From assembly GCA_013540605.1 (NCBI GenBank), contig JABVCK010000008.1, forward strand, positions 1 through 64,000: a DNA stretch of 64,000 bases. The letters are read 5' to 3'. The stretch comes from Bacillota bacterium (GTDB lineage: Bacteria; Bacillota; Clostridia; Ch29). Both the position numbers and the translations under genes were made by a program. Below the pieces are notes generated by a model that made no database searches, was not told the DNA's origin, and saw only the letters and a list, made by a program, of their open reading frames with translations. This document shows positions 12,611 through 63,185 of this stretch, in pieces (within the stretch, counting starts at the first letter, position 1; each line of letters opens with the position of its first letter).

Positions 12611-13620
12611 TACTTTTCCGCTCCCTTCATTCCGTCAAAGACCCCGGGATACTCATCCGAAAGCTGCTTAAGGGTGATGCTGTTTTCTTCATTGACCTCC
12701 GGAAAATAGATCTTCGGCTCCTTGTTCAGGTCCCACCTCTTTATCCTCATCGAAAAGGAATAGTGGTTCGGCATTCCCGGTTCAGTGAAATGAAAGGTGA
12801 TGTCCATGCTGACCGTCTCGTCTATTACGTAGTTATCCCTGTCGATATAGGCGACCTGTGTGAAATTGTTAACCGTTGCCTGGTCCAGTATGCTGATATT
12901 CTGCCTTAACATTTCTTCAACGGTGAACCCGTGAAACTCACCGGACTGCCCTTCCATGATGTTCTTCATCCCGTTTATCAGCTGCTCATCCTTCATGAAA
13001 ACATCCATAGATTTCTTGATCGCGGGCTTCAACTGTTCATCCGTCAGCTTCACCACGAATTTCTTGGCCTTGACGCTTCCCTCCGGCGTTTCCATGACTA
13101 TATCCTCTAATGCCGAAACGTTTTCATCGCTATACAGCGCCGTCCATATCCTGTTCAACTGCTCCAGGCTGTTGTCCGACAGCTTAGGTATATCCTCCTT
13201 GTCAAACTTGCCGGTGTTCAGGTGGATGAGTTCCTCTCCCTGTACCACCACGATTTTCGGTATAAGGGGTGTGATTACATATCCAACCTTCCCCCTGGTA
13301 TACAGTTTTCCGTCTATACCCATCTCGCCGGTCTGCAGAAATACTTTCTTCAGGCCTTCCTCCTTTTTCCTGTTGAATTCGTCATTCAGTTCCAGGTTAA
13401 ACTTCTCAAACAGGCCAAGGAACTTTTTAGCCTCTTCAGGAAGACCCTCCTTGTTGAAATCCATATTCATCGAAATCTCCATGGATAATTTGCCCATCTC
13501 AACCTTTCCGGTTTTCTCATTGGCTTCCATAAAAACTTCATAGTCCGACTTGCGGGTGCAGGATGCAGCAGCTGTTATTATCAATACTGCAGCCAGAATG
13601 CAAAATACCGCTCTTTTCAT
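12610..13620 (-). CDS. Lipoprotein of the ABC exporter operon
   Basis: A 336-residue protein with an N-terminal signal sequence and lipobox-like AASC (cysteine at about residue 21). The rest is soluble and beta-rich with amphipathic helices, resembling LolA/LppX-like lipoproteins in general character; I cannot name a family. The true start is ATG 13620 with AAAGGAGG at good spacing. The frame stays open for 65 more codons upstream, but that part is the heptamer array and is not protein. First gene of the ABC unit; it may sense or deliver the exporter's substrate at the outer face of the membrane. Confidence 0.75.
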   Translation of the reverse strand: MKRAVFCILAAVLIITAAASCTRKSDYEVFMEANEKTGKVEMGKLSMEISMNMDFNKEGLPEEAKKFLGLFEKFNLELNDEFNRKKEEGLKKVFLQTGEMGIDGKLYTRGKVGYVITPLIPKIVVVQGEELIHLNTGKFDKEDIPKLSDNSLEQLNRIWTALYSDENVSALEDIVMETPEGSVKAKKFVVKLTDEQLKPAIKKSMDVFMKDEQLINGMKNIMEGQSGEFHGFTVEEMLRQNISILDQATVNNFTQVAYIDRDNYVIDETVSMDITFHFTEPGMPNHYSFSMRIKRWDLNKEPKIYFPEVNEENSITLKQLSDEYPGVFDGMKGAEK

Positions 13621-13637
13621 AAAAATATCCTCCTTTA

Positions 13638-13817
13638 GATCGCAGGTGCTAGGTGCTAGATCACAGATCACAGGTGCTAGATCGCAGTTCACAGATCGCA
13701 GTTCACAGATCACAGGTTTTTGGGCAAATCTTATAGGTTTTTCCCCATAAGCACTTCCCTGACGTCTGTGATCTGTCATCTGGCCACTGGTCACTAGCCA
13801 CTGGACACTGGACACTG
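13638..13817. repeat. Degenerate heptamer array 1
   Basis: Positions 13638-13721 divide into twelve 7-bp words in register (GATCGCA, GGTGCTA, GATCACA, GTTCACA and the like). After a 40-bp spacer, 13762-13817 divide into eight more (such as GCCACTG and GACACTG). Read on the minus strand the array runs from CAG-starting words to words ending ATCT or ACCT, the same order as in the other three arrays. It fills the gap between the response regulator and the lipoprotein gene and stops 18 bases short of the latter's start codon. Confidence 0.85.
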
Positions 13818-13896
13818 CTAACTCTATTGTAATCCTTGGGAGGAAGGTATACTTCTGTTTAAAGTAATGTTTTGCACAGATTCACTATGCCAAAAG

Positions 13897-25335: not shown

Positions 25336-25620
25336 TTAAATAGATAGAATAAGAAATCTGCCTATAAATGCATCGGGGACATCCCGCGGCAAGGAATACC
25401 CGCGTAGCAGCGGTGTGTCCCCATACCTTAAGGCAGCGGTGTGTCCCCTTTCCTTAAAGTTTGTCAATTTGTCAAGCCTGACCCCATTACTTGCACGATA
25501 GGGCATTGTCAAACAAAGAACCGTCCCCTGTTCTACGAATACACTTGTTGCGAAGATGGATGCCATGGCGATAATGGAGAGTGCAAATGCCATTATTTTA
25601 TGTATTATTTTATGTATCAT
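25336..25620 (-). pseudogene. Secreted-protein gene truncated by repeat elements
   Basis: ATG 25620 has AAAGGTGG at ideal spacing and starts a clear signal peptide (MAFALSIIAMASIFATSV). After about 32 codons the frame enters the GGGGACGG word (25517-25528) and then the REP-like element, where its translation is repeat-derived. It is probably a small secreted protein whose body has been replaced by repeats. Confidence 0.4.
25375..25460. repeat. REP-like element, long copy
   Basis: GGGGACATCC at the left and TGTGTCCCC at the right bracket a GC-rich core containing GCGGCAAGGAATACC and GCAGCGG. The right half (GCAGCGGTGTGTCCCC) is repeated once more directly after. Both ends run into CCTTAA(AG). 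Same family as 403, 39006 and 63067. Confidence 0.75.
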
Positions 25621-33614: not shown

Positions 33615-33775
33615 TGATCAGTGGCCAATTATCAGTTGCCAGTTACCAGTTAACAGATGACAGACATCAGAAACCCGTTGGCAGATGACAGATATCAGTG
33701 GAACTACGAACTACCAACTATGAACTACGAACTAATATCTAGCGCCTGAGATCTGCGATCTGCCATCTGCGATCT
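33615..33775. repeat. Degenerate heptamer array 2 (23 units in perfect register)
   Basis: The 161 bp divide without gap into 23 words of 7 bp. The first twelve mostly end in CAG (ttgccag and ttaccag, for example), the next five end in AACT and the last six end in TCT or CCT (gcgatct three times with variants). It ends five bases before the stop codon of cdaR. It is not a simple microsatellite: positions 1-4 of the words vary while the last three and the phase are kept. Confidence 0.88.
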
Positions 33776-39005: not shown

Positions 39006-39063
39006 GGGGACATTCCGCGGCAAGGAATACCGCATAGCGGCGGTGTGTCCCCATACCTTAAAG
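39006..39063. repeat. REP-like element in the leader of the ABC operon
   Basis: GGGGACATTCC to TGTGTCCCCATACCTTAAAG; nearly the same as 25375. It lies between the operator and the SD of the gntR gene, so the mRNA leader carries it. Its end CCTTAAAG is fused directly to the GAGGAGG SD. Confidence 0.75.
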
Positions 39064-40924: not shown

Positions 40925-40937
40925 GGCAGAAACATAG

Positions 40938-41025
40938 ATGGCAGGCATCAGAAGTCAGTGACCAGTGATCAGTGGTCAGGGCTAGCACCTAGGACCTGGT
41001 ATCTGCGATCTGCCGGCTGCGATCT
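40938..41025. repeat. Degenerate heptamer array 3
   Basis: Six in-register words ending in CAG (40938-40979), a 4-bp phase step, then six words ending in CCT, GCT or TCT (40984-41025; gcgatct twice). Same CAG-to-ATCT order as arrays 2 and 4. It is followed at 41041 by AGAACCGTCCCC and two CCCGTGTCTTT-like repeats. Confidence 0.85.
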
Positions 41026-41073
41026 ATGCCTTCAGACAGAAGAACCGTCCCCGTGTCTTTCCCGTGTCTTTTC

Positions 41074-62452: not shown

Positions 62453-62511
62453 AACTACACCTCCCACTGAAAAGATTATAACATAAAGTGCTAAATTTTT
62501 GAACACCCTTT

Positions 62512-62644
62512 CAGTGGCCAGTCGGCAGACGCCAGAAAGGTCAAAAGTCGAAAGTTGGAAAGTCGAAAGTCAACAGTTACCAGAGAACAGTTACTAGGAC
62601 CTAGCACCTGTGATCTGTGATCTAGTACCTAGCACCTACCAACT
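62512..62644. repeat. Degenerate heptamer array 4 (19 units in perfect register)
   Basis: 133 bp divide into 19 words of 7 bp: CAG-starting words first, then gtcgaaa-like, agttacc-like and last acct/atct-ending words (gtgatct twice, agcacct twice). The last word, accaact, contains the first two bases of the stop codon of the gene at 62643. Same order and orientation as arrays 2 and 3. Confidence 0.88.
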
Positions 62645-63053
62645 ATAAAGCTGTCTCCTCGTATCCCAGGAGTATAGAAATCTTCTGAAGGGCCAGGTGC
62701 CTTGCGTCAGGACTGATTGCGGCTTTTTGATTGTCTTTACGCTCCCATCCGGGAAGCGGTGTGTAAGGTATGAATCTGAAACATTCTTCCAGCAATAATT
62801 CTTTTTCCTTGGAGTTCCCTTCGTGTTTCATCCAATCAACAACACATCTTTTCAGTTGTTCCCATTCGAGAAAAAACTGTTCTTTACCGCCATAGATGGT
62901 AATGAAAGGCAGAATCCCTTGCTGCCAGCGGTTCTGCCAATCCCTTTTGTACTCAAATACTCCGGCATCGTTTTCTTCTATTAAATCATGCAAGACGATC
63001 TGGTTTAACAGGTTGTAGAGAATAAATTTGCGTGTCTGCATACCAAAGGTCAT
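62643..63053 (-). CDS. Hypothetical protein flanked by repeats
   Basis: A 136-residue, mainly helical soluble protein rich in W and E (NRWQQGILPF, EQFFLEWEQLKRCVVDWMKHEG). No domain recognised. ATG 63053 has AAAGGAGG 9 bases upstream. That SD is fused to the end of a REP-like element, and the stop codon lies in heptamer array 4, so both borders of the gene are repeat DNA. Whether it is expressed is uncertain. Confidence 0.6.
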   Translation of the reverse strand: MTFGMQTRKFILYNLLNQIVLHDLIEENDAGVFEYKRDWQNRWQQGILPFITIYGGKEQFFLEWEQLKRCVVDWMKHEGNSKEKELLLEECFRFIPYTPLPGWERKDNQKAAISPDARHLALQKISILLGYEETAL

Positions 63054-63066
63054 CTTAGTTTCCCTC

Positions 63067-63185
63067 CTTTAAGGTATGGGGACACACCTCCCAAATATCG
63101 GCCAGGGGACACACCGCTGCTATGCGGGTATTCCTTGCTGCGGAATGTCCCCAATATATAACTCTCGGGCGGGAGGAATGTCCCC
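63067..63185. repeat. REP-like element, compound copy in minus orientation
   Basis: A full element (GGGGACACACCGCTGCTATGC to GCGGAATGTCCCC) with an extra GGGGACACACC unit on one side and a GGAATGTCCCC unit on the other. The border next to the minus-strand gene reads, on the minus strand, TGTCCCCATACCTTAAAGGAGG. The rest of the gap to 63364 holds only a TATAAT-like promoter for the next gene. Confidence 0.75.

Follow-up and report, generated by a model that had tools for sequence, protein, structure and literature searches.

The window, i.e., the whole stretch of 64,000 nt analysed here, to which the four-element coordinates below refer, carries four intergenic heptamer arrays that a first-pass annotation had placed at 13638-13817, 33615-33775, 40938-41025 and 62512-62644. 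Their existence was borne out by autocorrelation at lag 7, which stood well above that of shuffled sequence: identity at lag 7 was 0.58-0.66 in the four arrays compared to 0.13-0.33 at lags that are not multiples of 7, and the best 77-bp windows of the arrays contained 47-53 matches against a maximum of 33-38 in 20 Markov shuffles of the whole window. The array at 33615-33775, located at a glycerate kinase/CdaR site, is written, as had been claimed, in words that end in CAG in 10 of the first 12 cases, in AACT in the next five and in TCT or CCT in the last six. It comprises a left arm of 12 NNNNCAG words, 10 with intact CAG (33615..33698, plus strand), and a right arm of 11 words (33699..33775, plus strand) with types such as CTACGAA, CTACCAA and CTGCGAT; (C/T)AG triplets at 33619 and 33633...33696 are followed by CT(G/A) triplets at 33704...33767, all 7 bp apart. 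The core found in other copies is deleted in this one, and model R1 matches 33678-33771 at E 4e-6.

The array at 13638, oriented opposite to the other three, consists of two heptad arms that flank a non-heptad core of ~47 bp. The core and flanking words (ACGTCAGGGAAGTGCTTATGGGGAAAAACC...) are quasi-palindromic and conserved and occupy about 13704-13765 on the minus strand (13704..13765; R1 match at 13690-13779, minus strand, 93 bits). Judged by triplet spacing, the left (CAG) arm of this element extends over 13766..13830 and the right (CTG/CTA) arm over 13620..13703, both on the minus strand, and the end of the latter adjoins the ribosome-binding site AAAGGAGG of the gene below. The same spacing delimits, on the plus strand, the third element, with a left arm of TAG words followed by CAG words (40931..40979) and a CTAG pivot plus right arm with CTG/CTA every 7 bp (40980..41028, CTR at 40982...41024), and the fourth, with a left arm that includes an AAAGTC-type block (62509..62601) and a right arm with CTAGCAC and CTGTGAT words (62602..62646, R1 match at 62577-62633). 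The phase, initially described as strict, is nearly so: in core-bearing arms the step was 7 in 712 of 726 cases, 6 in seven and 8 in seven, the fourth array slips by 1 nt near 62560, and two of the four arrays (180 and 88 bp) have lengths that 7 does not divide. The common CAG-to-ATCT order ascribed to the four arrays holds in part and is in part an illusion, as quasi-palindromic elements read CAG first on either strand.

Once co-oriented, the arrays follow a common inverted plan in which a left arm of NNNN(C/T)AG words leads to a CTAG pivot or to the ~47-bp core and then to a right arm of CT(G/A)NNNN words. Both arms were present in 45 of 68 arrays and the right arm only in 18, and orientation was mixed in only 2 of 63. 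The core, with a consensus close to ACGTCAGGGCAAGGCTATAGGGTAAAAACCCAAAGGCCTAACCCGGATACCTGTGATCTG, is itself quasi-palindromic, with GGG/CCC, GGG/CCC and CAG/CTG pairs; 92% of its cells pair compared to 23-50% with the partners slid, and its covariation exceeds that of 499 out of 500 shuffles, a control weakened by related copies. The statement that these are not simple microsatellites was reinforced, since the arrays share ancestry and are not independent: 66 of the 68 merged arrays have a partner at E<1e-5, the best pairs being 72-90% identical over 75-218 bp, many contain the core, and the order of words is common across arrays (right arms of different arrays have 50 four-word strings in common, compared to 1.5 when words are permuted). 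The vocabulary is wide, with 99 distinct words among 376 in left arms and 123 among 593 in right arms, where CTACGAA, CTGTGAT and CTGCGAT are commonest. Near-identical recent copies were not found among the array pairs. The first-pass annotation recognised neither the inverted two-arm layout nor the fact that core and word order are shared among arrays, and it also lacked the history of insertion described below. Another inverted heptamer element, with other words (GAGAGGT.../...CACTTCC), was observed in the same genome on contigs C11 (225659-226028) and C8 (35576-35681); its two copies are 91% identical over 75 bp and for that reason it is perhaps more recent.

Array counts rest on 0.94-1.30 Mb of the own genome (G000) together with pattern and model searches of the whole genome. 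In 944,900 bp, 82 arrays were detected at lag 7, compared to 2-22 at the other lags from 4 to 12 and 0-3 in shuffled sequence; this density (~8.7 arrays per 100 kb) extrapolates to about 290-300 intergenic places in the genome of 3.35 Mb. Searching the genome for CAGNNNN x3 CAG gave 412 occurrences, compared to three for the reversed control, and a covariance model of the core yielded 127 matches with both strands counted, many being the two strands of one place. A lag-7 excess and further arrays in the genome and its relatives, whose absence would have spoken against the arrays, were thus both found. Three further genomes of the family, G001, G003 and G002, also contain the core, the match in G002 being weak. 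Such arrays were found in other members of the class as well (10 of 60 genomes searched, the own genome included), which bears on the earlier remark that no counterpart was known in Clostridia. G044, an otherwise distant genome from another family of the class, contains many purer arrays (CTGGTTA, CTCAACT and AATTGAG words), some of them in inverted pairs (L080-L085, L089, L090).

The history of insertion can be followed at two loci. In G000 the spacer between the fumarase subunit genes (PF05681, PF05683) contains a full element and measures 229 bp, and in G001 it contains an element and measures 128 bp, compared to 16 bp in G002, 10 bp in G005 (also of the same family) and 14 bp at a second operon copy of G000. 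The array at 13638 is flanked on one side by a conserved response-regulator gene and on the other by the ribosome-binding site of the next gene, and the orthologous spacers in G001, G003 and G005 are devoid of it. Comparison with the relatives thus shows clean empty sites at both loci, and no target duplication was seen at either. The array at 33615 gives no empty-site comparison because synteny at that site is lost in the relatives. At the fumarase site the core of G001 resembles other G000 cores (47/56) more closely than the G000 core in the corresponding position (38/56), these two partners belonging to different subfamilies (L079, L052), which suggests either gene conversion between elements or independent, repeated insertion.

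The placement of the arrays bears on the possibility that they are regulatory or nucleoid sites, at which (C/T)AG or CT(G/A) would be read every 7 nt, in DNA or mRNA, by an IHF/HU-like protein, some other global regulator or an RNA-binding protein. Array edges lie near the 3' ends of genes (median 10 bp), some arrays stand just before ribosome-binding sites, and conservation within the word is strong in the triplet only, as would be expected of such sites; moreover, the inverted heptanucleotide sites of Geobacter and the TAACTGA repeats of Beggiatoaceae have been read in this way (PMC2700814, PMC4679880). However, orientation relative to genes is random (30 vs 23), divergent promoter spacers are avoided (2 of 63 arrays vs 58 of 333, p 0.002) and a conserved function is unlikely because arrays are absent from orthologous spacers within the family. 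A role in protein reading, although possible, is supported neither by position nor by conservation, and we regard this explanation as doubtful.

A second explanation is purely mutational: slippage of the polymerase in 7-bp steps, as proposed for STRR and other heptanucleotide repeats, would make the arrays locally and their likeness would be convergent. Heptamer arrays are indeed found in many phyla, with period 7 dominant elsewhere in the loci listed below (55 arrays, followed by 17 at the harmonic 14). Generation unit by unit, which the first-pass annotation had put forward, is also supported in part by the finding that identical neighbours make up 9-16% of adjacent words compared to 3-6% of random words, and that the fumarase-site arrays of two genera (G000, G001) differ in word number. 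On the other hand, change is distributed unevenly within the word. Around cores, where lattices keep a strict 7-bp spacing, 94-95% of internal words retain an intact triplet, a value somewhat inflated because the lattice was traced by the triplets themselves and only two consecutive failures ended it; between adjacent words, A and G of the triplet differ in only 4-6% and its pyrimidine in 22%, almost always by transition, whereas the four remaining positions differ in 41-62% of left-arm and 19-61% of right-arm comparisons (chi-square p 5e-75 and 6e-93, with pairs treated as independent). Uniform decay of a tandem repeat cannot explain that A and G of the triplet are nearly fixed while most other positions change. 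Like this uneven decay, the 47-bp non-heptad core, the common word order and the consistent orientation are not what slippage acting locally on its own would be expected to produce. Pure slippage is already disfavoured for core-bearing copies, and as a general account we consider it improbable.

A second dispersed palindromic family, REP-like and close to GGGGACATTCCGCGGCAAGGAATACCCGCGTAGCAGCGGTGTGTCCCC, was observed in the window at 402-450, 25375-25447, 39006-39051 and 63078-63184, with tandem copies elsewhere in the genome at C8:28138-28300 and C11:111632-111752; no linked Y1 transposase was found for it. Heptad arrays lie between the GGGGACA and TGTCCCC arms of this family at C1:2565, C1:207880, C11:278893, C8:56513 and C12:32052, as if inserted in the loop of a REP-like hairpin. 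That the arrays are parts of the REP-like family, travelling with it at the tip of GGGGACA...TGTCCCC palindromes, is very hard to credit, for although these 5 of 68 arrays exceed the 0.42 expected (at most 4 in 200 controls), more than 90% are placed otherwise and the overall proximity of the two families is estimated to be what their shared intergenic space predicts.

The search for a mobilising enzyme covered PF01797 and PF00078. The genome has six PF01797 (Y1_Tnp) genes, with neither heptads nor REP units close by, so a Y1 transposase/RAYT was rejected as the mover. Matches to reverse transcriptase (PF00078) were few and in part fragmentary in G000, with one in G001 and none in the core-bearing G003; as they do not track the elements, this candidate was discarded as well. 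Other identities fared no better: Rfam gave no match in the window at gathering scores and none up to E 1 for one core-bearing element, which led to rejection of a known RNA family, and a phage origin was set aside since viral contigs, searched with one fixed pattern, had no core match. Primase or TRAP-type sites were considered as a conceivable identity of the triplets.

Folding was approached through the modelled energy of the duplex between left and right arms. The value for arms of the same element (-15.8 kcal/mol) was kept when arms were swapped between elements (-15.2) or the variable bases were shuffled with CTR retained (-14.1), and was lost when all letters were shuffled (-5.9). Consequently, in the model, the ability of the arms to pair resides almost wholly in the triplet lattice, and each left arm can pair with every right arm. 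Minimum-energy folds of whole elements were only modestly better than those of shuffles (mean z -1.2 and -1.7) and the fold of the 33615 array was not significant. Outer words showed neither covariation within the element nor complementarity better than that between elements, and with single-strand folds also weak, a simple hairpin pairing word by word was rejected for the outer words. The recognition code read every 7 bp that had been suggested as an alternative found no support, given that the pairing of arms in the model owes little to the variable bases and that no protein acting as a reader was found.

Based on this evidence, the arrays probably constitute one dispersed non-coding family of quasi-palindromic hairpin elements that spread by insertion and now resemble old non-autonomous elements of the MITE/REP type; an old hairpin family with heptamer arms, non-autonomous and largely selfish, is the most likely identity. 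Elements of about 60-350 bp would have inserted into gene spacers and untranslated regions, often losing the ~47-bp hairpin core and leaving the CTAG pivot. Single-stranded arms may fold into a ladder hairpin whose rungs are CAG/CTG-type triplets at every 7 nt. Since only the rungs must match, the arms could pair in any 7-nt register, and slippage in 7-bp steps would in turn be tolerated whereas single-base indels would not. The other four bases would drift, which may also keep the repeats from becoming an unstable perfect palindrome. The arms would accordingly evolve by slippage in steps of 7 bp. Several observations speak against this reading: whole elements fold with only modest stability, outer words lack covariation, 18 of 68 arrays have the right arm only, no target duplication was seen, and neither a transposase nor a reverse transcriptase was linked to the elements in the search for PF01797 and PF00078. 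To our knowledge, records of heptanucleotide repeats in unrelated bacteria go back decades, and they explain neither why the unit should be seven nor how units that have diverged stay in phase. A single rule, under which one fixed triplet recurs every 7 nt as a rung able to pair whatever the register, would account for strict phase together with free words and for changes in arm length, and makes the question of "why seven" testable. It also carries a warning, as such arrays in untranslated regions and operon spacers would be insertions and not conserved regulatory codes.

Heptamer arrays are not confined to this lineage. A search for eight CAG at 7-bp spacing, in one genome per species, returned among the matches listed both pure and degenerate arrays, with loci from Cyanobacteria, Bacteroidota, Planctomycetota, Chloroflexota, Acidobacteriota, Desulfobacterota, Actinomycetota and others. 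Neighbouring arrays in the loci listed are inverted in 14 of 37 pairs, compared to 52 of 400 random pairs, and direct pairs also rise (9 of 37 vs 38 of 400). Inverted degenerate arms 8-160 bp apart were observed in the loci listed from Chitinophagales, Syntrophaceae, other Deltaproteobacteria, Accumulibacter, Actinomycetota, Microcystis and Planctomycetes (L209, L158, L160, L162, L177, L181, L143, L211). Inverted heptamer arms are probably a recurring design. It may be speculated, with low confidence, that such arms around a short loop represent a general class of bacterial mobile hairpins across many phyla, the period being set by one conserved enzyme or replication step and the 3-base rung being the sole conserved code.

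Among known systems, MITEs and REP/BIME elements are likewise short, non-coding, palindromic, dispersed in spacers and present or absent between relatives, and the arrays resemble MITEs in that their non-coding copies are homologous and scattered and that relatives have empty sites. Unlike them, the elements described here have long degenerate heptamer arms; no defined terminal repeats were observed, no target duplication was seen at the two empty sites, and no linked transposase was found in the search for PF01797 and PF00078. The arms are inverted only at the level of the triplet, and elements do not flank a RAYT (Y1_Tnp) gene as in REP/RAYT systems. The STRR repeats of heterocystous cyanobacteria are 7-nt tandem units, and in Nostoc the tRNA-Leu intron has two classes of degenerate heptanucleotides in a stem. 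The arrays share with STRR the head-to-tail arrangement of 7-bp units between genes, whereas the (near-)identical units of an STRR array are not, adjacent words being identical here in only 9-16% of cases.

Kindred heptamer repeats are already known. TAACTGA direct repeats occur in Beggiatoaceae, Cyanobacteria and Bacteroidetes and are also intergenic heptamers, with 7-nt indels between related strains (PMC4679880); read on the other strand, TAACTGA becomes TCAGTTA, and words in this phase are present here as well (CAGTTATCAGTTA). They differ in that a single word is repeated, near-identical words being rare in the best studied genome, that neither inverted arms nor a core are reported and that they often stand in fixed orientation just before start codons (PMC4679880), while the arrays described here use many words, TAACTGA being only a minor form (e.g., C1:220144). 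Closer in design are the multicopy paired sites of Geobacter metallireducens, in which class 1 is made of octanucleotides and class 3 of five tandem heptanucleotides MTYCTGA (PMC2700814). Class 3 is short, near-fixed in consensus and represented by 16 sequences as opposed to hundreds here, with neither a shared core nor an ordered series of words reported in the main text (PMC2700814), and its consensus is not that of the commonest right-arm words of our arrays. Nevertheless, these similar inverted sites consist, as here, of dispersed CTG-containing tandem heptanucleotides in opposite-strand pairs at variable distance, and are drawn with the same inverted layout (PMC2700814) that unites both arms in 45 of the 68 arrays of this genome.
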